NCBI GenBank assembly: GCA_003574685.1
Contig: QOCQ01000033.1
Span: 1 to 46,241 of the forward strand
Direction of reading: 5' to 3'
Origin: Rhodospirillaceae bacterium SYSU D60007
GTDB taxonomy: Bacteria > Pseudomonadota > Alphaproteobacteria > Reyranellales > Reyranellaceae
DNA length: 46,241 nt
Shown: positions 20,361 to 41,658 of the stretch, in pieces
Numbering within the stretch: position 1 is the stretch's first letter
How the letters are laid out: each line of letters starts with the position of its first letter
Program-made: the position numbers and the translations under genes
The notes under the pieces: model-generated
Databases searched by the model: none
Seen by the model: the letters and a program-made list of their open reading frames with translations, nothing else
What the model was told of the DNA's origin: nothing

Positions 20361-21659
20361 TCACATGTGCGAGGGCAGGAAGGTGGCCAGCACCGGGAAG
20401 GCGATCAGCACCGCCAGCCGCAGGATGTCGGTGGCCACGAAGGGCAGTACGCCATAGAAGATCGTCGAGATCTTCACGTCCTTCACCACGCTCTTGATGA
20501 CGAACACGTTCATGCCGACGGGCGGGTGAATCAGCCCCAGCTCGACCGTCATGACGATGATCACGCCGAACCAGATCGGATCGAAGCCCAGCGCCTTGAT
20601 GACCGGAAACACGATCGGAATGGTGAGGATGATCATGGCCATGGCGTCCATGATGCAGCCCAGCAGCAGATACATCACCATGATCAGGATCAACACGCCA
20701 TATTTTCCCAGCCCAAGGCCGGTGAGAAAGCCGGTCACCTTCTGCGGCGTCTGGGTGATGGTGAGGAAATAGCCGAACAGCAGCGCGCCGATCAGGATGG
20801 TGAAGACGGCAGCCGTGGTCCGTACCGTCTCGACGCAGGATTGCCAGAACTTCTCACCTGTCAGGCGGCCGCGTACCAGCGCGATGATGAACGCGCCGGC
20901 GGCGCCGGCGCCGGCCGCTTCCGTGACGGTGAACAGGCCGCCATAGAGGCCGCCGATGATGAACAGGAAAAGCAGCGCGACGGCCCAGATGTCGCGCATC
21001 GCCGCACCGCGCTCGGCCCACGAGCTGCGTGCGCCCCGCGGCAGGAAGTCGGGACGCACGACGCCGATGATGTTGATCGTGACCACGTACATGCCTACGG
21101 CCACGAGGCCAGGGATGATGCCGGCGACGAACAGCTTGCCGATATCCTGCTCGGTGATCAGCCCGTAGATCGCCAGGACCGTCGACGGTGGAATCATGAT
21201 GCCAAGCGTGCCGCCGGCCGCCACGACGCCGGTGGCAAAGCTCTCGGGATACCCGTAGCGGCGCATTTCCGGGTAGGCGACGGAGGAGAACGTGGCGGCG
21301 GTGGCGACGGACGAACCGCAGATGGCGGCAAAGCCACCGCAGGCGGCAATGGTGGCAATGCCCAGACCACCCCTGAGATGACCCAGAAAGCTGTTGGCGG
21401 CGCGGAACAACTCGCGGCTCATGCCTGAACTCGATGCGAGCGCCCCCATCAGCAGGAACATCGGGATGACGGCGAACTCGCCCGATGTCGCCGTACGGAT
21501 CGGGGACTGCGCCAGCAGCTTCAGCGCCGGCTCGGGACCCGCCAGGTAGCCGAAGCCGACGAGCCCCACCAGTCCCATGGCGATTCCGACCGGCACGCGC
21601 AGCAGCATCAGCGCGAACAGCGCGACGAAGCCAACGACCGCAACGGTATCCGCACCCAT
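20361..21659 (-). CDS. TRAP transporter large permease (DctM-like), cluster 1
   Basis: The 432-residue protein is the 12-plus-segment channel subunit of a tripartite ATP-independent periplasmic transporter, driven by an ion gradient. Family traits are LLMGALASSSGMSRELF, GVVAAGGTLGIMIPPSTVLAIYG and the C-terminal LIHPPVGMNVFVIKS. I chose the ATG at 21659 (MGADTVAV), 7 nt after the DctQ stop. The reading frame continues 35 residues upstream but without family features. It works with the adjacent DctQ and DctP. Confidence 0.93.
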   Translation of the reverse strand: MGADTVAVVGFVALFALMLLRVPVGIAMGLVGLVGFGYLAGPEPALKLLAQSPIRTATSGEFAVIPMFLLMGALASSSGMSRELFRAANSFLGHLRGGLGIATIAACGGFAAICGSSVATAATFSSVAYPEMRRYGYPESFATGVVAAGGTLGIMIPPSTVLAIYGLITEQDIGKLFVAGIIPGLVAVGMYVVTINIIGVVRPDFLPRGARSSWAERGAAMRDIWAVALLFLFIIGGLYGGLFTVTEAAGAGAAGAFIIALVRGRLTGEKFWQSCVETVRTTAAVFTILIGALLFGYFLTITQTPQKVTGFLTGLGLGKYGVLILIMVMYLLLGCIMDAMAMIILTIPIVFPVIKALGFDPIWFGVIIVMTVELGLIHPPVGMNVFVIKSVVKDVKISTIFYGVLPFVATDILRLAVLIAFPVLATFLPSHM

Positions 21660-21666
21660 GCCGGCG

Positions 21667-22179
21667 CTACTCCGAATGCGGCGCCAGTGCTTGGCCGGGT
21701 GGACCGTTCCGCCCAAGGAGCATGCGCACCGTGCGTACCGCCAGCAGGAGGATCGCCGCGGCAAGCCCGATCCAGGCGGCGAAATGGAATATCCAGACCG
21801 GCATGCGCAGATCGAACGTCTGTAAATTGTCGTTGTAGGTGCTCAGCACCTTGGTCGCCATCATCCAGGTGAAGACGCCAAGGCAGGCCAGTGTCAGCAG
21901 GTCGGCGAAGACGTCCATGGCGCGCTGCAGGCGCCGCGGTGCCACGCTCCAGACCAGGTCGATCCGGATATGCTCGCCGCGATAGCTGGCTCCCGCGATG
22001 CCCCAGAAGATCAGCACCCCCAGCAGCAGGCTGCTCGCGTCATAGCTGTCGGGAATCTGCCACGCGAAGAAGTACCGCAGGATGACCGAGACGAAGGTGA
22101 TCGCCGTGACGGCAGCGAGAAGGCCCGCCGCCGCCAGCTCGATCATCGCCATCAGCCGGTCGACCGGACCTTGCGCCAT
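21667..22179 (-). CDS. TRAP transporter small permease (DctQ-like), cluster 1
   Basis: The 170-residue protein has four hydrophobic segments, the usual DctQ topology (first near residues 10-32, last near 138-158). The SLLLGVLIFWGIAGASYRGEHIRIDLV stretch matches the DctQ core. It joins the large permease in the membrane. It lies between the binding-protein gene (15-nt gap) and the DctM gene (7-nt gap). Confidence 0.9.
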   Translation of the reverse strand: MAQGPVDRLMAMIELAAAGLLAAVTAITFVSVILRYFFAWQIPDSYDASSLLLGVLIFWGIAGASYRGEHIRIDLVWSVAPRRLQRAMDVFADLLTLACLGVFTWMMATKVLSTYNDNLQTFDLRMPVWIFHFAAWIGLAAAILLLAVRTVRMLLGRNGPPGQALAPHSE

Positions 22180-22194
22180 GGGAGCGTCCGCGGG

Positions 22195-23217
22195 TCAGTA
22201 CGCGGCCTTGTATTTGGCCAGGCTGTCCTTCAGCTCCTTGAAGACTGCATCGGGATCGACCCGCGCCTTGCGGGCGCCATCGGCCCAGGTCTTGCGGACG
22301 GGCTCTGCCGCCTTTCGCCATTCGGCAAGCTGGGCAGGGCTGATCGCGTAGACCTCGCGGTCCGGCTCAGCCTTGAGCTTGTCGCGGCCGGCCGCCTCGA
22401 AGTCAGCCCACGGTGCCGCGACGCGCAGGGCCCATTCATTGGTGCAGTGGTCGCCGATCACCCGCTTCTGCGCCGCCGACATGGACTCGTATCGGGACTT
22501 GTTGATGACCCACGTAAAGGTACTGACATAGAGCGGTACGTCCATATGGTACTTGACCACCTTGTCGATGCCGAACAGCGGGATCGATCCCCACGGGAAG
22601 GTGACAGCATCGGCCACACCTTTCTCCAGCACGTCGCGGACTTCCGGGGCGCCCGCCTGCACGTTGGTGCCGCCAAGCTGCGTGACGAAGGCGGCGATGG
22701 TGGCCTGGGCCGGGCGGATCTTCATGCCCCGGATGTCCTCCGGCACCATCACCTTCTTCGTACGGGAATGGATCACGCCAGGGTCGTGGACGAAGGCGAG
22801 GCAGAACTTCACGTCCCGCATCTCGCGTTCCGCATACTTCCGGTACCAGGCATCGAGCGCCTGCGAACCGCCCTTGGCATTGGTCATCAGGAACGGCTGC
22901 TCGCCCGCGGCGATGATGGGAAAACGGCCGGGCTGATAGCCGGGATTGATATAGGTTACGTCGGCGATGCCGTCGCGCGCCATGTCGTAGTGGTCGAATG
23001 CCTTGCCGAGCTGCTGGGCGGGATAGATGGTCGCCTTGATGGTTCCGCCCGAGGCTTTGGCGATCGAGCCGCTCCAGTCCTCCAGCGCCTTCTGCAGGGG
23101 ATGCGTCGGCGGCACCCAGTGCGAGATGCGCAATTCGACCGGCTTGTCCTGGGCTGCCGCCATATCGCAGACGCCCAGGACGGCCAGGACGCCGAGTGCA
23201 AGGACGCGTGCTTTCAT
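22195..23217 (-). CDS. TRAP transporter substrate-binding protein (DctP-like), cluster 1
   Basis: The 340-residue protein starts with a Sec signal peptide (MKARVLALGVLAVLGVCDMAAA) and is a periplasmic DctP receptor. The arginine that usually binds the substrate carboxylate sits in RGMKIRPAQA. The substrate is probably an organic acid; together with the crotonase and MarR neighbours, an aromatic or branched acid entering CoA-linked breakdown is plausible but not shown. The start overlaps the marR stop in ATGA, so the two are translationally coupled. Confidence 0.92.
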   Translation of the reverse strand: MKARVLALGVLAVLGVCDMAAAQDKPVELRISHWVPPTHPLQKALEDWSGSIAKASGGTIKATIYPAQQLGKAFDHYDMARDGIADVTYINPGYQPGRFPIIAAGEQPFLMTNAKGGSQALDAWYRKYAEREMRDVKFCLAFVHDPGVIHSRTKKVMVPEDIRGMKIRPAQATIAAFVTQLGGTNVQAGAPEVRDVLEKGVADAVTFPWGSIPLFGIDKVVKYHMDVPLYVSTFTWVINKSRYESMSAAQKRVIGDHCTNEWALRVAAPWADFEAAGRDKLKAEPDREVYAISPAQLAEWRKAAEPVRKTWADGARKARVDPDAVFKELKDSLAKYKAAY

Positions 23218-24040: not shown

Positions 24041-24976
24041 TCACGGCGGCGGCTCGGCGCCTTTGCGTTCGACGATGAGACGGTAGGCCTCGGGCCGGCG
24101 GTGGCGCGCGAAGTTGAAGGTGGTGGCGGTATAGCTCTTGCCGGCGTCGAGATCGCAGCGATACACGATCAGCTCGTCGCCGTCGCCGGCAGCCCGCGCC
24201 ACGACCTTGCCGGAAGGCGCCACGATCTGACTGTCGGCCAGGCTGGGAACGCGTTCTTCCGTCCCGCCCTTGGCGACACCGATCACCCACGTGCCGTTCT
24301 GGTAGGCGCCTGCCTGCATCGAGAGCTGGTTGTGAAACCCGCTATGCTCGTCGTGATCGGGTGCCGGCGGGTTGTGCAGCGGCGTGTTGTATCCCAGCAT
24401 CACCATCTCGACGCCCTGCAGGCCCATCACCCGGTAGGTCTCCGGCCAGCGCCGGTCGTTGCAGATGCACATGCCCATGATGCCGCCGAAGGCACGGAAC
24501 ACGGGGAAGCCGAGATTGCCCGGCTCGAAGTAGCGCTTCTCCAGGTGCTGGAACGGCCGCTGCGGCTCGTGCTCGGCATGACCGGGCAGATGGACCTTGC
24601 GGTACTTGCCGACGATGCGGCCGTCGCGTTCGACCAGGATCGAGGTGTTGAACCGTCTGGTGCGTCCATCCTCCTGCGCCAGTTCGGCATAGCCGAGGCA
24701 GAAGCCCAGCTCCAGCCGCTTCGCCTCGGTGAACAGGGGTGCCGTTTCATTGCCCGGCATCTCGCGTTCGAAAAAGCTGTCGATCTCCGCCTCGTCGGTC
24801 ATCCACCATCGTGGGAAGAACGTGGTCAGCGTCAGCTCGGGAAAGACCACCAGCTCGCAGCCCATGCGCCTCGCCTCACGCAAATGTGCGATGAGGCGCT
24901 CCACGACTTCCCTCCGGCTGTGGCTGCGCTGGATCGGCCCCATCTGGGCGGCGCCGACGGTGAGGTAACGCGGCAT
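24041..24976 (-). CDS. N-carbamoyl-D-amino-acid hydrolase (nitrilase superfamily)
   Basis: The 311-residue enzyme closely resembles Agrobacterium D-carbamoylase, which splits N-carbamoyl-D-amino acids into D-amino acid, CO2 and ammonia. The catalytic triad is at the same numbering as in that enzyme: E47 (FPELTLTTFFPRW), K127 (VGKYRKVHLPGH) and C172 (GMCICNDRRWPE). The conserved PFQHLEKRYFEPGNLGFPV and YNTPLHNPP stretches are also present. I chose the ATG at 24976, one base after the stop of the upstream L-carbamoylase; an extension to 25060 lies inside that gene. It forms a two-gene unit with the M20 hydrolase. Confidence 0.92.
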   Translation of the reverse strand: MPRYLTVGAAQMGPIQRSHSRREVVERLIAHLREARRMGCELVVFPELTLTTFFPRWWMTDEAEIDSFFEREMPGNETAPLFTEAKRLELGFCLGYAELAQEDGRTRRFNTSILVERDGRIVGKYRKVHLPGHAEHEPQRPFQHLEKRYFEPGNLGFPVFRAFGGIMGMCICNDRRWPETYRVMGLQGVEMVMLGYNTPLHNPPAPDHDEHSGFHNQLSMQAGAYQNGTWVIGVAKGGTEERVPSLADSQIVAPSGKVVARAAGDGDELIVYRCDLDAGKSYTATTFNFARHRRPEAYRLIVERKGAEPPP

Positions 24977-24977
24977 C

Positions 24978-26216
24978 TCATTCCTCCGCAAGTTCCAGCA
25001 GGACATCGAGCAGTACCGCCGCGCCCGCCTCGAGATCGGCGGGGGCGGTGTACTCCGCAACGTTGTGGCTGAGCCCCTTCGCGCTCGGCACGAAGATCAT
25101 GCCGGCAGGGCACAGCCGCGCCATCATCTGTGCGTCGTGACCCGCGCCGGAGGGCAGGCGCATGGTGGAACGGCCCTGCGCCTGCGCAATGCGCCCCACC
25201 CTGTCGATGATCGCGGGGTCGAATTCCACCGGCTCGAAGCGCGCCAGCCGGCGGCGGCTTACGGCGACGCCTTCGGCCGCGGCGGTCTCCTCGATGAACG
25301 CGAAAACGCGCCGCTCGGCCGCCTGCAGCAACTGCTCGTCGGTATTGCGCAGATCGACGCTGAAGCGGGCATGGTTGGCAATGACGTTGATCAGGTTGGG
25401 GCGCAGCTCGCAGACGCCGACCGTGCCGACTTGAGCGCCGCCCATCTCGTCAACGAGTTGCCGCACAAAGGCGGCGGATGCGGCGGCGACATAGCCCGCG
25501 TCGTGGCGCAGGCGCATGGGCGTGGTGCCGGCATGCGCAGAAACGCCCGTGACGACAAATTCATGCCAGGAGATGCCCTGAACGCCAGTCACGACACCGA
25601 TCGTCACGCCTGCTTCCTCGAGCACCGGTCCCTGCTCGATATGCAGCTCGACATAGGCGCGCGGCCTGATCGTGCCCGGCGCCGCGGGGCCGCGATAGCC
25701 GATGCGCACCAGCTCGTCGCCCAGACGCACACCTGCTGTGTCTGTCGCGGCCCAGCCTTCCTGCAGGGTGAGGCCGCCGGCGTGCACGAGGCTGCCCATC
25801 ATGTCCGGCTGGAAGCGGGCCCCCTCCTCGTTGGTGAAAAAGGCGACGCAAAGCGGATGGCGGGTCACGATGCCACCCGCGTCCAGCGCACGGCAGACCT
25901 CCAGCCCGGCGAGCACACCATAGTTGCCGTCGTACCGGCCGCCGGTGCGGACCGTGTCGATGTGCGAGCCCGTCATGACCGGCGGTCCTGCCTCCTTGCC
26001 GCGGCGCAGGCCAAACACGTTGCCGATAGAGTCGATGGTGACCTCCAGACCCAGCTCGCGCATCCAGCCCACCACCAGATCGCGGCCCGCCTTGTCCTCG
26101 TCCGTCAGCGCCAGGCGCGCGCAGCCGCCGCCTTCAATCGCGCCGATCCTGGCCAGCGCGGCCAGCCGCGCATGCAGCATCGCGGCATCAATGCAGGATT
26201 TCACGGTCATGGACAT
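24978..26216 (-). CDS. N-carbamoyl-L-amino-acid hydrolase / allantoate amidohydrolase (M20 family)
   Basis: The 412-residue metallo-hydrolase belongs to the Zn/Mn-dependent M20 group that includes L-carbamoylase, beta-ureidopropionase and allantoate amidohydrolase. Metal-site motifs are GSHIDTV (H85), GGRYDG (D96), TNEEGARF (E130/E131), VELHIEQGP and the C-terminal GLSHNVAEYT; GAGHDAQMM is also typical. Among family members the exact substrate cannot be decided from sequence, but the neighbouring D-carbamoylase favours N-carbamoyl amino acids. The next gene starts one base after its stop. It faces the second TRAP cluster across a 270-nt gap. A second ATG 6 nt in is an alternative start. Confidence 0.9.
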   Translation of the reverse strand: MSMTVKSCIDAAMLHARLAALARIGAIEGGGCARLALTDEDKAGRDLVVGWMRELGLEVTIDSIGNVFGLRRGKEAGPPVMTGSHIDTVRTGGRYDGNYGVLAGLEVCRALDAGGIVTRHPLCVAFFTNEEGARFQPDMMGSLVHAGGLTLQEGWAATDTAGVRLGDELVRIGYRGPAAPGTIRPRAYVELHIEQGPVLEEAGVTIGVVTGVQGISWHEFVVTGVSAHAGTTPMRLRHDAGYVAAASAAFVRQLVDEMGGAQVGTVGVCELRPNLINVIANHARFSVDLRNTDEQLLQAAERRVFAFIEETAAAEGVAVSRRRLARFEPVEFDPAIIDRVGRIAQAQGRSTMRLPSGAGHDAQMMARLCPAGMIFVPSAKGLSHNVAEYTAPADLEAGAAVLLDVLLELAEE

Positions 26217-26486: not shown

Positions 26487-27539
26487 ATGGGTTTCGGAAG
26501 GTACGCAGCGTGCGCTGTCCTGGCGGCGGCGGTGGCAACCGCGCCATTGGCCGCGGGGGCCCAGGACAAGAAGGTCCGGTTCAACGTCCAGTCCAGCTTT
26601 GCGTCGTCTCTCCAGATCCTGGGGCCGAACGCGAAGCATCTCGTCGATACAATGAAGACGATCAGCGGAGGCTCGATTGACGCGAGGTTTTTCGAGCCTG
26701 GCGCCATGGTTCCGCCGGGTCAGGCGTTCGATGCCGTGGCCTCCGGTTCGCTTGATGCGGCCTGGGCAACGCCGGGCTACTGGACGGGCAAGGACATCGC
26801 TTTTGCCGTCTATTCGACCGTGCCCTTCGGTCCCGACACCGGCGAGTACATGGCGTGGATGAAGTTCGGTGGCGGCGAGAAGATGCTGCAGGAGCTGTAC
26901 GCCAAGTACGGCATCCACTCGCTGATCTGCCATGTCATCGCGCCCGAAGCGTCAGGCTGGTTCCGCAGCGAGATCAAGACGCTTGAGGACCTGAAGGGCC
27001 TGAAGATGCGCTTCTTCGGGCTGGGCGCCAATGTCATGCAAAAGCTTGGCGTGGCCACGCAGCTCCTGCAAGCCGGCGAGATCTTTCAGGCGCTGCAGCT
27101 CGGGACGATTGATGCCACCGAGTTCTCCATGCCGGCAATGGACCTCAGCCTCGGCTTCTATCAGGTAGCCAAGTACTACTACTTCCCCGGCTGGCACCAG
27201 CAATCGACCTTCGGCGATCTGATCATCAACAAGGCCAAGTGGGATTCGTTCTCCGCCACCCAGAAGGCGCAGATCCAGGCGGCGTGCGACTCCACCACGC
27301 TGCGCGGCATCGGTCTTTCCGAGTACGCACAGGGCCAGGCCATGCAGGAACTGAAGGCCAAGGGCGTCAACTTCATGACGTGGAACAAGGAGTTCCTCGA
27401 CGCTTACAGGAAGGCCTGGCAAGAGGTTGCCAAGGAACAGGCCGACAAGAGCCCGGAATTCAAGAAGGCCTGGGACTCGCTGAATTCCTTCCGTCAGACC
27501 TATAGCCTCTGGCGCGAGCGCGGCTACCTGCGCGACTGA
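26487..27539 (+). CDS. TRAP transporter substrate-binding protein (DctP/TakP-like), cluster 2
   Basis: The 350-residue protein has a Sec signal peptide (about residues 1-24, cut after AAGA) and resembles the TakP branch of DctP receptors, some of which bind 2-oxo acids. Relevant stretches are VPFGPDTGEYMAWM, LKGLKMRFFGLGANVMQKLG, DATEFSMPAMDLSLGFY and YYYFPGWHQQ. The substrate-contacting arginine would be in KMRFFG. A very strong ribosome site (GGGAGGAATGAG) precedes the ATG at 26487; an upstream ATG at 26454 is less likely. It is the only binding protein for the two membrane pairs that follow. Confidence 0.92.
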   Translation: MGFGRYAACAVLAAAVATAPLAAGAQDKKVRFNVQSSFASSLQILGPNAKHLVDTMKTISGGSIDARFFEPGAMVPPGQAFDAVASGSLDAAWATPGYWTGKDIAFAVYSTVPFGPDTGEYMAWMKFGGGEKMLQELYAKYGIHSLICHVIAPEASGWFRSEIKTLEDLKGLKMRFFGLGANVMQKLGVATQLLQAGEIFQALQLGTIDATEFSMPAMDLSLGFYQVAKYYYFPGWHQQSTFGDLIINKAKWDSFSATQKAQIQAACDSTTLRGIGLSEYAQGQAMQELKAKGVNFMTWNKEFLDAYRKAWQEVAKEQADKSPEFKKAWDSLNSFRQTYSLWRERGYLRD

Positions 27540-27629
27540 CGCACCACAGCGAACGGAAGATGGCATGCGCGGCCACGGCAGAGGGGCCGCGCAGCCTTGT
27601 GTCGGGAACTGGCGGGGCAGGAGCTTCAA

Positions 27630-28190
27630 ATGAGTTCGTTGCTGGCATTCAGCGATTCGGTCGATCGCTGGCTTGAACGTATCGCGCGTGCCTTCGGGTG
27701 GCTGTTCGTCGCGCTGGTGGTGGTGATCTGCTGGGACGTGTTGACCCGCAAGATCGGCTTTCAGCTTCCGGGTTTCGGATCGACGCCGATCCAGGAGATG
27801 GAATGGCACCTGCATGGCGCGCTGTTCCTGTTCTGGCTGGGCTACGCCTATGTACGCAACGTGCACGTGCGCATTGACGTGTTCACCGGCCATCTGCCGG
27901 CGCGCCGGCAGGCCTGGCTAGAGGTGTTCGGCATCGTGCTGTTCGCCATCCCCTATTGCCTGGTCGCGACGTGGTTCGCGTTCTGGTACGCCGAGATCTC
28001 CTTCGTGCAGAACGAAAGCTCCGATGCACCCAACGGTCTGCCGTACCGCTGGATCATCAAGTCATGCCTGTTCCTTGGCCTGTTGCTGCTGTGCTTCGCG
28101 GTGGCATCGGTGCTGAGCCGGCGTCTGGTCTTTCTCTTCGGATCGCCGGAGCTGGCCGCCAGGGCCGCACCGCCAGGCGCCAGCCACTGA
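27630..28190 (+). CDS. TRAP small permease (DctQ-like), first of tandem pair
   Basis: The 186-residue protein has four membrane segments. Its core, QLPGFGSTPIQEMEWHLHGA, is closely echoed by the second DctQ of this cluster. AGGAG precedes the ATG at 27630. It lies 90 nt after the binding-protein gene and 16 nt before the first large permease. Confidence 0.9.
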   Translation: MSSLLAFSDSVDRWLERIARAFGWLFVALVVVICWDVLTRKIGFQLPGFGSTPIQEMEWHLHGALFLFWLGYAYVRNVHVRIDVFTGHLPARRQAWLEVFGIVLFAIPYCLVATWFAFWYAEISFVQNESSDAPNGLPYRWIIKSCLFLGLLLLCFAVASVLSRRLVFLFGSPELAARAAPPGASH

Positions 28191-28206
28191 AAGCGGGGGA
28201 ACGGCC

Positions 28207-29589
28207 ATGTACGACTGGATCGCCACCCATCTCGCCGTGCTGATGTTTCTGGTCCTCACGGTGATCATGTTCATCGGCTACCCGGTGGCCTTCGTGCTCG
28301 GCGGCGTGGCGCTGGGCTTCGGGGTGCTGGGTATTATCTTCGACGTCTTTCACCCCGCCCAGTTCCAGGCGCTGATCCCGCGCATCTGGGGCCAGGCCGT
28401 ACAGAACCAGGTCCTGATCGCGGTGCCCATGTTCGTGTTCATGGGCACGATCCTGGAGCGTAGTGGCGTGGCCGACGAGCTGCTCAAGGCGCTGCAGGTG
28501 CTGCTGCGGCGCATCCCCGGCGGCCTCGCCATGGCCGTCACGCTGATGGGCACCATCATGGCCGCGACCACCGGCATCGTCGGTGCGTCCGTGATCATGC
28601 TCACCCTGATTGCCCTGCCGACCATGCTGGAGCGCGGCTACTCCAAGGAGCTGAGCGTCGGCACCATCGCGTCGGCTGGCACGCTGGGCATCCTGATTCC
28701 GCCCAGCATCATGCTGGTGATCATGGGCGACCTGATGACCATCTCGGTCGGCACCCTCTTCACGGCGGCCGTGCTGCCCGGGTTGATCATGTCGGGCGTG
28801 TACGTCGTCTACATCGGCATCCTTGCCTTCCTGCGGCCTCAGATGGCGCCGCCGCTGGCCGCGCATGCGGGACCGCAGGGCACGGGCGAGTTCCTGAGCA
28901 TGGTCTTTCGCAGCTTCCTGCCGCCCTCGTTCCTCATCTTCGTCGTTCTCGGCTCGATCTTTGGCGGATTCGCCACGCCCACAGAAGCAGGCGGCGCCGG
29001 ATGCGCCGGCGCGCTGCTGCTGGCGTGGTGGAACAGGAGACTGAACCTGAAAATGATCAGGGAGGTCATCGAAAGCTCGGCGCTCACCAATGCGCTGGTC
29101 TTCTTCATCGTCTTTGGCGCGACCCTGTTCTCGTTCGTCTTCCGCGCCCTGGGTGGCGATGATGTCGTGGCCGAGCTGCTGGCCGCCGCCGGCATCGATA
29201 CCGGCTGGTCGATCCTGATCTTCGTGATGACGCTGGTGTTCATCATGGGCTTCTTCTTTGACTGGCTGGAGATCTGCCTGATCGTGCTGCCGATCTTTGC
29301 GCCTATCCTGGCAAAGGTCGATTTCACGCCGCACCTGGCGACGAACAAGGATTTCATGCTGTGGTTCGTGGTGCTGGTGGCGGTCAACCTGCAAACCGCG
29401 TTCCTCACGCCGCCCTTCGGCTTCGCGCTGTTCTACATGAAGGGGACGGTGCCGAAATCCGTCACCATGCGGCACATCTATCGCGGCATCATTCCATTCG
29501 TGCTGCTGCAGCTCATCGCCCTTGCGCTGGCGATCATCTTCCCCGACATCATCCTCGGCCTGCCGCGCTATTTCGGATTCCTCGACTAG
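28207..29589 (+). CDS. TRAP large permease (DctM-like), first of tandem pair
   Basis: The 460-residue channel protein shows the DctM motifs VPMFVFMGTILERSGVADELL, IASAGTLGILIPPSIMLVIMG and FLTPPFGFALFYMKGT. The FFFDWLEICLIVLPIFAPIL segment is typical of the TakM-like branch, matching the TakP-like receptor upstream. It is followed after 9 nt by a second DctQ. Confidence 0.93.
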   Translation: MYDWIATHLAVLMFLVLTVIMFIGYPVAFVLGGVALGFGVLGIIFDVFHPAQFQALIPRIWGQAVQNQVLIAVPMFVFMGTILERSGVADELLKALQVLLRRIPGGLAMAVTLMGTIMAATTGIVGASVIMLTLIALPTMLERGYSKELSVGTIASAGTLGILIPPSIMLVIMGDLMTISVGTLFTAAVLPGLIMSGVYVVYIGILAFLRPQMAPPLAAHAGPQGTGEFLSMVFRSFLPPSFLIFVVLGSIFGGFATPTEAGGAGCAGALLLAWWNRRLNLKMIREVIESSALTNALVFFIVFGATLFSFVFRALGGDDVVAELLAAAGIDTGWSILIFVMTLVFIMGFFFDWLEICLIVLPIFAPILAKVDFTPHLATNKDFMLWFVVLVAVNLQTAFLTPPFGFALFYMKGTVPKSVTMRHIYRGIIPFVLLQLIALALAIIFPDIILGLPRYFGFLD

Positions 29590-29598
29590 GGCGTAGGC

Positions 29599-30168
29599 AT
29601 GAAAACCCTGCTTGCGGCGGCCGATGCAGCCGAACGCCTTCTCGGCTGGATCGCCGAGGCGACGGGCTGGCTGATGCTCGTGCTGATGGGCGTGATCTGC
29701 ATTGATGTCGCCACACGCAAGGCCGGAATCCAGCTTCCGGAGCTTGGCTCGACGCGGCTGCAGGAGCTGGAATGGCACCTGCACACGGTGCTGTTCAGCG
29801 GCTGGCTGGGCTACTGCTACCTGCTCAATGCGCATCCGCGTGTCGACTCCGTGACGGAACGCCTGTCGTTCCGCAAGCGGGCCTGGATCGAACTGATCGG
29901 CTGCCTCGTCTTTGCCCTGCCGTACGGCTATGTCTGCGTGCACTACGGACTCGAATTCACCTGGGACTCCTGGAAGACCAGCGAGACATCCGAGGCCGTC
30001 ATCGGCATTCCCTGGCGGTGGTTCATCAAGGGCCTGTTCTCTGCCGGGCTCGTCCTGATGCTGGTCGCCACCCTTGCCATGACCGTGCGGCTGGTCGGCT
30101 ATCATCTCGGCTACACAAGGCGCGAGACCAGCGGTCTGCCGCTCGACAAGGCCATAGAGCCGATGTGA
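29599..30168 (+). CDS. TRAP small permease (DctQ-like), second of tandem pair
   Basis: The 189-residue protein has four membrane segments and is homologous to the first DctQ (QLPELGSTRLQELEWHLHTV against QLPGFGSTPIQEMEWHLHGA). It diverges further on, for example DSWKTSETSEAVIGIPWRW in the loop before the last segment. It is tightly linked to the first large permease (9-nt gap), but 221 nt that include a palindromic repeat separate it from its own large permease. Confidence 0.9.
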   Translation: MKTLLAAADAAERLLGWIAEATGWLMLVLMGVICIDVATRKAGIQLPELGSTRLQELEWHLHTVLFSGWLGYCYLLNAHPRVDSVTERLSFRKRAWIELIGCLVFALPYGYVCVHYGLEFTWDSWKTSETSEAVIGIPWRWFIKGLFSAGLVLMLVATLAMTVRLVGYHLGYTRRETSGLPLDKAIEPM

Positions 30169-30222
30169 GGGCCGCCAGTGGCTGAAAGCCGGGCATCGCA
30201 ATCGCAACCACTTGCCCATGAA

Positions 30223-30364
30223 CCTTCCCCCTCCGGAGGGGGAAGGTGGCGCGCAGCGCCGGAAGGGAGATGCCTCAGCAAGCACTACCTTCAAAGGCGA
30301 GAAGCCGAAGGTGTTGAGCCATCCCCCTTCCGCCCTTCGGGCACCTTCCCCCTCCGGGGAAAGG
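30223..30364. repeat. CCTTCCCCCTCCGGAGGG palindromic element, copy A, inside the TRAP operon
   Basis: The element begins with CCTTCCCCCTCCGG and ends with its near reverse complement. The arms are about 45 bp: on the left, GGGGGAAGGTGGCGC then CGCCGGAAGGG; on the right, the complement of GGTGCCCGAAGGGCGGAAGGGGGATG. About 45 bp lie between them. It could fold into a long hairpin and lies between dctQ2 and dctM2. A second copy is at 41538-41658. No open frame or transposase is present, so it is a non-autonomous repeat. Confidence 0.85.
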
Positions 30365-30389
30365 CAAGTGGGGGCGCTGCGGTGCCGGC

Positions 30390-31775
30390 ATGATCGAGTG
30401 GTTCGCCGATCACCTCGCGCTGATCATGTTCGTCACGATGTTCATCGTGATCTTCTGCGGCTATCCGGTTGCCTACGTGCTGGGCGGTACCGGGCTGATC
30501 TTTGCAGTGATCGCCTGGATGCTCGACCCCGGCTTCGCGCTGGTGAAGCTGAAGAGCATCGTCCTGCGCATCTGGGGCGGTGTCGCCGTTGATCCGGTGC
30601 TGGTGTCGCTGCCCATGTTCATTTTCATGGGCGCCATTCTCGAACGCAGCGGCATCGCCAAGGATATGCTCAATGCGACGCAGGTCCTGATGCGGCGCGT
30701 TCCGGGCGGGCTCGCCATCGCCGTCATGGTGATGGGCACGATTCTCGCGGCACCTATCGGCGTTGTCGGCGCCTCTGTCGTGATGCTTTCCCTGATCTCG
30801 CTGCCCGCCATGCTGGCCGGCGGCTACGACAAGCGGCTGTCGATCGGCACGGTGGCGTCGGCGGGAACGCTCGGCATCCTCATTCCGCCTTCCATCATGC
30901 TGGTGGTGATGGGCGAGATGCTGAGCACATCCGTAGGCTCGCTGTTTGCGGCGGCGGCCGTTCCGGGTTTCGTCCTTTCCGGCCTCTATCTCCTCTACAT
31001 CCTCGGCGTCGCCGTCCTCAAGCCGGCACGGGCGCCCCGCCTGTCGGCGGCGGCGCTGCCGCAATCGTATGGCGAGCTGCTGGGCATCGTCCTGCGAGGG
31101 ATGGTGCCGATGACCCTGCTGATGGTCGTGGTGCTGGGCTCGATCTTCGCCGGCTTCGCCACCTCGACCGAGAGCTCGGGCGTGGGCTGCCTGATCGCGC
31201 TGATCATCGCATGGATGAACGGCCGGCTGGATATGCCGATGCTGCGGGGCGCCATAAGCGACTCCTGCCGCGCCAACGGCCTGGTGTTCATGGTGATCCT
31301 TGGCGCCACCGGCTTCTCGCTGATCTTTCGCGAGCTGGGCGGTGACGATCTCATGCTCAGCACGCTCAGCCTGATGGGTATCGACACCAAGTGGGAAGTC
31401 CTGATCTTCGTGATGGTGCTGATCTTCCTGCTGGGCTTTCCCTTTGAATGGATCGAGATCTGCCTGATCGTGCTGCCGGTCTTTGCGCCGATTCTGGCAA
31501 GGCTCGATTTCGGTTCTCATCTTGGCAATGCAGCCTGGTTCATGCCGTGGTTTGCTACACTGGTCGCGGTGAACCTGCAGACGGCATTCATGTCACCGCC
31601 GTTCGGCGCCACGCTGTTCTACATGAAGGGTACGGTGCCGCCCGGCTGCACCATGGCCGACGTCTACGCCGGCATGTATCCGTTCCTGGTCCTGCAGGTG
31701 ATCGGGCTGGTGCTGTGCATCGCCTTTCCGGAGCTGTCGCTATGGCTGCCCCGGGTCACAGGCATGCTCGATTGA
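30390..31775 (+). CDS. TRAP large permease (DctM-like), second of tandem pair
   Basis: The 461-residue channel protein is a paralogue of the first DctM: LPMFIFMGAILERSGIAKDML, VASAGTLGILIPPSIMLVVMG and FMSPPFGATLFYMKGT correspond segment by segment. Its ATG at 30390 lies 25 nt after the palindromic element. No strong ribosome site is visible, so its translation may be affected by the element. Its stop is separated by a single base from the stop of the convergent peptidoglycan-binding gene. Confidence 0.92.
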   Translation: MIEWFADHLALIMFVTMFIVIFCGYPVAYVLGGTGLIFAVIAWMLDPGFALVKLKSIVLRIWGGVAVDPVLVSLPMFIFMGAILERSGIAKDMLNATQVLMRRVPGGLAIAVMVMGTILAAPIGVVGASVVMLSLISLPAMLAGGYDKRLSIGTVASAGTLGILIPPSIMLVVMGEMLSTSVGSLFAAAAVPGFVLSGLYLLYILGVAVLKPARAPRLSAAALPQSYGELLGIVLRGMVPMTLLMVVVLGSIFAGFATSTESSGVGCLIALIIAWMNGRLDMPMLRGAISDSCRANGLVFMVILGATGFSLIFRELGGDDLMLSTLSLMGIDTKWEVLIFVMVLIFLLGFPFEWIEICLIVLPVFAPILARLDFGSHLGNAAWFMPWFATLVAVNLQTAFMSPPFGATLFYMKGTVPPGCTMADVYAGMYPFLVLQVIGLVLCIAFPELSLWLPRVTGMLD

Positions 31776-41537: not shown

Positions 41538-41658
41538 CCTTCCCCCGGAGGGGGAAGGTGGCGCGAAGCGCCGGAAGGGGGATGCCGCCACAAGCACGGC
41601 GTGCGCGTTGAGAGATCCCCCTTCCGCCCTTCGGGCACCTTCCCCCTCCGGGGGAAGG
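41538..41658. repeat. CCTTCCCCC palindromic element, copy B
   Basis: This is the same element as at 30223-30364, but shorter (121 bp): CCTTCCCCCGGAGGGGGAAGG on the left, its complement on the right, and the GGTGGCGCGAAGCGCCGG / GGTGCCCGAAGGGCGG variants in the arms. It lies between convergent genes, where it could end transcription from both sides. Confidence 0.85.

Follow-up and report, generated by a model that had tools for sequence, protein, structure and literature searches.

How does a tripartite ATP-independent periplasmic (TRAP) transporter work when a single receptor gene is followed by two pairs of membrane-subunit genes? The question is raised by an operon in a 46,241-nucleotide stretch (contig QOCQ01000033.1) of Rhodospirillaceae bacterium SYSU D60007, a member of the Reyranellaceae; we refer to this whole stretch of DNA as the window and to the Reyranellaceae as the family. 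The usual TRAP composition is one DctP-type receptor (P), one small membrane subunit (DctQ; Q) and one large membrane, or elevator, subunit (DctM; M), and this is not found here, as the operon has one P, two Q and two M. The five genes lie on the plus strand in the order P (26487..27539), Q1 (27630..28190), M1 (28207..29589), Q2 (29599..30168) and M2 (30390..31775), as the first-pass annotation had proposed, and both of the peptides it quoted were found. All five score above the Pfam family cut-offs: P, of the TakP-like subfamily, with PF03480 (154.6 bits, cut-off 23.4), Q1 and Q2 with PF04290 (62.4 and 37.4 bits, cut-off 28.3; the Q1 score was computed on the open reading frame from an alternative start at 27597), and M1 and M2 with PF06808 (231.4 and 181.0 bits, cut-off 23.8). 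With DctP, DctQ and DctM each above its cut-off, the operon qualifies as a TRAP transporter of the DctP type. From comparative sequence analysis we consider it probable that one TakP-like receptor feeds two diverged QM elevators with the same class of carboxylate.

The two membrane pairs had been described as paralogous, and this was confirmed. M1 and M2 share 56% identity over 461 residues, and Q1 and Q2 share 42% over 181 residues, or 48% over 145. In a tree of M subunits (83 rows, after near-identical and partial rows were dropped) the M1-type and M2-type proteins together form a supported clade (Shimodaira-Hasegawa-like approximate likelihood ratio test, SH-aLRT, 97). Within it, the M2 clade (33 rows, SH-aLRT 100) sits on a long stem of 0.88 changes per column; the M1 clade contains 26 rows (SH-aLRT 99), with two more M1-like rows unresolved at the base. 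Given the level of identity and the separate clades, we reject the idea that pair 2 was copied recently from pair 1. M1 passes the NCBIfam DctM model TIGR00786 (292.9 bits, cut-off 268.45) and M2 fails it (248.6 bits); an NCBIfam scan of Q1 and Q2 gave no match for either. The simple account would be that QM was duplicated in tandem behind one P, that pair 2 then diverged, and that one pair was repeatedly lost; a bringing together of two operons is a conceivable alternative origin.

A search for the P-Q-M-Q-M order in other genomes had been suggested, and the order does recur. When Q2 was used as the query against 75 family genomes, the neighbourhoods were taken for 36 of the best matches with weak ones left out, and gene order was called by BLAST with the window genes, P-Q1-M1-Q2-M2 was present in order in 11 of the 75, the window genome included (G000, G002, G005, G016, G021, G031, G043, G049, G054, G064 and G071); it is thus found in 10 further family genomes, along with two loci outside the family. 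Some of the 11 tandems have defects: in G002 and G016 the contig ends within P, G031 has an interrupted Q2, and the M2 of G071 falls short by approximately 37 residues. Outside the family, Desertibaculum subflavum has P-P-Q1-M1-Q2-M2, with two P genes ahead of the two pairs, and a metagenome-assembled genome (L165) has the tandem with an incomplete P, which is truncated by the end of the contig and lies 830 nt ahead of Q1. A wider contig scan returned 47 loci, many of them on the same contigs as the family loci. Loci left out of the tandem count were L113 (no P, Q1 truncated), L116 (Q2M2 without P), L154 (partial, the contig starting within M1) and L118 (7775-13470, in G004), where pair 2 is divergently transcribed from P-Q1-M1; in G014 a truncated Q1 is followed by M1-Q2-M2 without P at that site. 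A frameshift or assembly artefact as the cause of the order is ruled out by its presence in 11 genomes, one of which (G049) is a single contig. Nine plasmid records contained a relative of M2 (E <= 1e-80), each at a single place and all below 60% identity, and none had a tandem. More distant Q-M-Q-M tandems were also seen at L137:9638-14033 and L138:5952-10347, with no DctP found in the 20 kb of sequence available there, and at L177:417-6550 the order P-M-Q-Q-M combines a receptor and a third kind of pair (in the order M-Q) with a Q-M of the pair-2 type.

In relatives, pair 2 appears to be maintained. The ratio of nonsynonymous to synonymous substitution rates (dN/dS) for M2 was 0.041-0.115 in the eight closest pairs of relatives, which share genomes and are not independent, and it was below that of M1 in seven of the eight, being slightly above it in L111-L113 (0.115 versus 0.108). 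By this measure pair 2 is under purifying selection in the relatives. In L104 and L106 the Q2 stop and the M2 start overlap by one base. We also considered that pair 2 might be a dead copy, and rejected this in view of the intact genes in the window, their conservation and the low dN/dS in relatives.

Each pair also occurs alone beside a receptor. P-Q1-M1 without pair 2 was found at nine family loci, each with at least 6 kb of downstream sequence (L122, L123, L125-L129, L131 and L135), and at seven loci outside the family (L197-L199, L202-L204 and L206, the M1 of L206 being cut). In the genome of L135 (G048), pair 2 lies on another contig (L116:10507-12475). L130 was counted as pair 1 only, although tentatively, because the contig stops there. 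Conversely, P-Q2-M2 without pair 1 was found at L110, L112 and L114, and also in Bradyrhizobium, betaproteobacterial and Hyphomicrobiaceae records, where the receptors are more distant. A search of 76 genomes of the order found an M1-type subunit at 69% identity or above in 24 genomes, and a search of 385 genomes of the class found one in eight genomes outside the family, with M2 alongside only in that of Desertibaculum (G167). Pair-2-type Q-M genes for which no receptor was found in the available flanking DNA were seen at L116, L162 and L164.

At one site in Reyranella these states can be compared between the same flanking genes, namely an upstream RND (resistance-nodulation-division) pump, assigned by eye, with amidase, AtzH-like and Amidohydro_2 genes assigned by Pfam, and a downstream SBP_bac_5 gene. 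Between these flanks both pairs are present at L106, L111 and L115 (at L106 the SBP_bac_5 match is weaker, at 52%, and on the opposite strand), pair 2 only at L114, and pair 1 only at L125, L127, L128 and L129. The pair-2-only locus L110 has the upstream block, with no SBP_bac_5 match in 3.1 kb downstream. The site is a natural deletion series in which the receptor is the constant part.

The receptors themselves do not sort by the pair that they accompany. In a tree of 58 labelled P proteins (18 beside pair 1, 25 beside pair 2 and 15 beside both; the unrelated window receptor at 22198 was left out of this set) the three classes interleave, and a minimum of 15 switches of partner state is needed, or five among 24 family rows; this tree and that of M are quick ones with SH-aLRT support only, and weak forks may inflate these counts. 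Of the readings offered by the first-pass annotation, 'one receptor serves two channels' is therefore the best supported, since the same receptor lineage stands beside pair 1, pair 2 or both. The binding pocket gives a similar picture. The solved chains nearest to P are 4yzz, 4yic and TakP (2hzk/2hzl), and with the TakP ligand and cation site residues taken from the passages of PMC1839085 that describe them, Arg177 and Glu214 of TakP are kept in P as R175 and E212 and are identical in every row with a residue there. Gln156, Trp215 and Glu240 are not kept (E154, F213 and Q238 in P), so that two ligands of the cation site described there are exchanged and one backbone ligand is altered; the Glu/Gln exchange leaves the count of acids in the site unchanged. 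Tyr100 corresponds to Y98 in P and is Y or F in nearly all relatives. The positions of Q156, R177, E214, W215 and E240 read E, R, E, F and Q in nearly all receptors, whichever partner they stand beside, and no column of P was fixed differently (at 90%) between the 18 pair-1-only and the 25 pair-2-only receptors. Because the pocket residues are the same beside pair 1, pair 2 or both, the class of ligand should not depend on the pair, and the earlier suggestion that the two channels might have different substrates is disfavoured at the level of the receptor.

We then consider whether M1 and M2 could both work with P. In an alignment of 34 M1 and 51 M2 rows, which are related and not independent, and with 'fixed' taken as 93% or more, 106 columns are invariant and identical in the two types and 32 are fixed but different, several of the latter at the hairpins (HP) for substrate and Na+. 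Most ligands of the two sodium sites, Na1 and Na2, of M subunits are backbone carbonyls. With the site residues mapped on PpSiaM from the passages of PMC9971032 and PMC10942642 that list them, both M1 and M2 conserve the Gly and Pro of Na1 as well as the Gly that belongs to Na2 in HP2. The Na2 residue Thr369 is Thr in M1 (T401) and Thr or Ser in M2 (S402 in the window M2), and at the position of Gly366, also in Na2, most rows of both types have Ala or Ser. Of the Ser positions, that of Ser103 is Ala in both types and that of Ser108 is Ile or Val in the M subunits here; at that of Ser106, which belongs to Na1, M1 has Thr (33/33) and M2 has Ile (48/49). This last change does not prove altered ion binding because Ser106 coordinates Na+ through its backbone. 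The HP1 tip reads TTGIV in M1 and PIGVV in M2, compared with MSGSA in PpSiaM. In HP2, Phe350 and Asp352 of M1 are replaced by Pro and Glu in M2; the position equivalent to Asp352 touches the substrate in FnSiaQM, according to the relevant part of PMC11801797. L400, F406 and A407 of M1 are replaced by M, A and T. The different ion coupling suggested by the first-pass annotation is compatible with such fixed differences at the hairpin tips, but a shared mode of coupling is equally compatible with the sequences, most Na+-site positions being kept in both M1 and M2.

A comparison of the receptor-docking faces had also been proposed. With docking residues taken from those reported as tested in HiSiaPQM in the corresponding passages of PMC9352664, it can be seen that M1 and M2 share the main ones: the docking Glu (PpSiaM 237) occurs in 34/34 M1 and 48/49 M2 rows, the docking Ser (Pp 164) in 30/34 M1 and 43/49 M2 rows, and an Arg adjacent to the position of Pp Arg292 in 33/33 and 49/49. 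An AlphaFold2 model of M2 (12-row alignment) had a mean predicted local distance difference test score of 47.8 and was not used.

We therefore favour a scheme in which P would capture the carboxylate in the periplasm and deliver it to either of two QM elevators, docking on both. The two elevators are probably made from the same message. The intergenic gaps are 90 nt (P-Q1), 16 nt (Q1-M1), 9 nt (M1-Q2) and 221 nt (Q2-M2), and one message for M1 and Q2 is argued for because the gap between them is only 9 nt. The pairs are old paralogues, pair 1 being conservative and pair 2 derived, with changes in the hairpin tips that hold substrate and Na+. Both would carry the same class of substrate and be driven by Na+, and what sets them apart would be their rate, affinity or coupling and not the receptor.

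Several observations weigh against this scheme. Pair 2 is dispensable, as pair 1 stands without it at nine family loci and in seven of the eight genomes outside the family that have an M1-type subunit. Compared with five family Q2 proteins that are 69-89% identical among themselves, the window Q2 reaches only 52-60% identity, and its dN/dS against those five is 0.36-0.54; the window M2 is less accelerated (76-79% to the five family relatives, which are 83-96% identical among themselves). A dispersed palindromic repeat has, in addition, widened the gap between Q2 and M2. The two adjacent receptors of Desertibaculum, at 65% and 67% identity, permit one receptor per pair. On the docking side, neither M1 nor M2 holds constant a weaker docking residue, Asn354 of HiSiaQM (Asn at Pp 162), and no position could be assigned to the docking Arg of Q, since Q1 and Q2 matched solved structures only weakly and the proteins hit were unrelated. 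Receptors can be strict in their choice of partner; in the experiments described in part of PMC10942642, PpSiaP failed with HiSiaQM, although AaSiaP worked. Finally, three conservative columns of P (residues 41, 69 and 74) separate three pair-2-only from ten pair-1-only family receptors, and none of 300 shuffles reached three such columns, although the shuffling ignores relatedness and one group has n = 3. Some adaptation of the receptor to its partner may be reflected in this split.

A potential alternative is that the tandem is a redundant duplication, kept for dosage or drifting to loss, in which either pair suffices. Relatives that lack one or other pair at the same site are what this would predict, and the fast-evolving window Q2, the repeat that parts Q2 from M2, the interrupted Q2 of G031 and the short M2 of G071 are in keeping with drift. 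However, simple redundancy does not predict the 32 fixed differences between the M1 and M2 rows, and the dN/dS of M2 (0.04-0.12 in the eight closest pairs) and the retention of the tandem in 11 of 75 family genomes and at two loci outside also speak against it. We regard this explanation as doubtful.

Alternatively, pair 2 might be supplied by a receptor encoded elsewhere, its position behind P being a relic of duplication. Candidates do exist, as the genome yields 23 matches to DctP, 21 to DctQ and 28 to DctM (the last in 26 genes, of which two are each matched in two pieces), and orphan DctP proteins are encoded on contigs C58, C2 and C56, where the surrounding 18-20 kb showed neither Q nor M; these orphans are, however, just 35-37% identical to P. 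In Vineibacter terrae and Bradyrhizobium, Q2M2 lies beside a receptor about 50% identical to P, the nearest counterpart of which is here on C25, but that counterpart comes with an M and a Q of its own. When P was used as a query against 17 genomes (completeness 74-100%, so that drafts may lack genes), each of the 11 tandem family genomes had one receptor at 60% identity or above, which in G002 and G016 runs off the contig, and no second one was found, several of these genomes being incomplete drafts. The next-best receptors were 48-51% identical in G000, G016 and G021, each with its own QM, and at most 37% in the other tandem genomes, the single-contig G049 among them. A second receptor gene for pair 2 elsewhere, which had been named as the finding that would overturn a shared receptor, was thus not found, the next receptor in this genome being 48-49% identical with its own M and Q. 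Moreover, Q2M2 stands beside a P-like receptor (72-76%) in G062 and G020, two family genomes in which no M1-type subunit was found. A separate receptor for pair 2 is, on this evidence, unlikely.

A more specific form of the shared-receptor scheme is that the same ligand passes from the one receptor to two elevators that differ in mechanism, the energetics of pair 2 being altered through Na1/HP1 and the HP2 tips, possibly with hetero-assembly from Q to Q; this we hold to be improbable as a whole. Least likely is a single hetero-assembly of Q1M1 beside Q2M2, joined through their Q subunits and loaded by a dimeric receptor, for although HiSiaQM can dimerise through Q and TakP is a helix-swapped dimer (in the relevant sections of PMC10942642 and PMC1839085, respectively), and the four membrane genes stand in one close-set row, each pair occurs alone in relatives and so neither needs the other, the parallel dimer interface described in that part of PMC10942642 is only about 100 square angstroms, and in the model of the TakP dimer on QM in the corresponding part of PMC9352664 the second monomer points upwards, off the interface.

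Arrangements other than one receptor to one QM occur elsewhere in these genomes. Two P with one Q and one M lie on contig C55 of the same genome, and two tandem receptors precede one or two QM pairs at L204:10154-12331, L208:5478-7651 and L155:4203-6324. Runs of four to five DctP-like matches were seen at G005:C73:19273-25222, G031:C139:1337-7322 and G014:C2:18748-23513, and at G000:C37:8905-10728 a minus-strand Q-M without its own DctP lies approximately 2 kb from a complete plus-strand P-Q-M.

Within the operon, the start of P was set at 26487, behind a GGAGG sequence, although the open reading frame permits 26454. A GC-rich stem is predicted on the plus strand just 3' of the P stop codon (27562..27596); in the window its z score is -1.3, and 21 of 200 shuffles were equally stable. 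Such a stem is predicted in the P-Q spacer of all eight loci folded (the window and seven others), with z below -2 in four of the eight, and it is possible that it acts as a 3' stabiliser or attenuator yielding more P than QM. The palindromic repeat between Q2 and M2 (30223..30364, about 145 bp) was recognised from matches in its own genome, where it has 97 matches at approximately 40 places, after 40 of 295 first-look candidates were scored. The RNA of the 221-nt Q2-M2 spacer has a predicted fold of -136 kcal/mol (z -7.1). Another copy of the repeat lies in the window at 41538-41658; G014 has an insert of approximately 200 nt at the Q2-M2 junction without similarity to it.

Upstream of P, on the minus strand, are genes for an M20-family amidohydrolase of the allantoate/N-carbamoyl-amino-acid amidohydrolase type (24978..26216; NCBIfam NF006769, 464.6 bits, cut-off 452) and a carbon-nitrogen (C-N) hydrolase of the nitrilase superfamily (24041..25060; Pfam PF00795, 161.8 bits). 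Both neighbours recur at L103 and L118, at the latter just downstream. C-N hydrolases adjoin the operon in the window and in Reyranella, and other kinds of gene do so at L155, L199, L168, L158 and L202. The presence nearby of C-N hydrolases of several unrelated families suggests an acid bearing an amide, ureido or carbamoyl group as the substrate. A second complete TRAP system lies in the window on the minus strand (20373-23217; DctP 22195-23217, DctQ 21667-22179, DctM approximately 20373-21653), about 3.3 kb from the operon studied here and adjoined by a gene for a MarR-type regulator.

Known systems resemble this one in part. P aligns nearly full length with the receptor of TakPQM, the alpha-keto acid transporter of Rhodobacter sphaeroides, and keeps its Arg and one Glu, but Gln156 and Glu240 of TakP are Glu and Gln in P and Trp215 is Phe, and TakPQM is described, in the relevant passages of PMC1839085, with one TakQ and one TakM. 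M1 and M2 align nearly full length with the solved M domains of SiaPQM (HiSiaQM and PpSiaQM) and keep the Gly and Pro reported for Na1 and a hydroxyl at the reported Na2 Thr position; the HP1 tips differ, however, and in the Sia systems a single receptor accompanies a single QM. Loci at which several DctP share one QM (C55, L204 and L208) also depart from one-to-one pairing of receptor and membrane part, but in the reverse direction. In ZnuABC and AztABCD, Paracoccus denitrificans likewise has a pair of related permeases that handle the same kind of substrate within a cell, but these zinc ABC (ATP-binding cassette) systems each have their own receptor, and the pairing is reported as highly specific in the abstract of PMC7731109. 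No description of one TRAP receptor with two tandem QM pairs was found in the titles and abstract openings returned by searches of the open PMC literature, or in the relevant passages of PMC5812351, PMC8276074, PMC11574862 and PMC11668362.

The best-supported conclusion, drawn from sequence comparison, is that this operon would work like an ordinary TRAP system with a doubled and diversified membrane part. How selective a TRAP receptor is for its membrane subunits is an open question that has so far been addressed, in the sources seen in part (e.g. PMC10942642), by swaps between species. Two diverged channels behind one receptor, with single ones in relatives at the same site, provide natural material for defining what docking requires, and for asking whether changes at the hairpin tips alter ion coupling with the receptor and substrate held constant. 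If one receptor does prove to feed two elevators of different mechanism, the receptor would be an exchangeable part of the TRAP system and not a dedicated partner.

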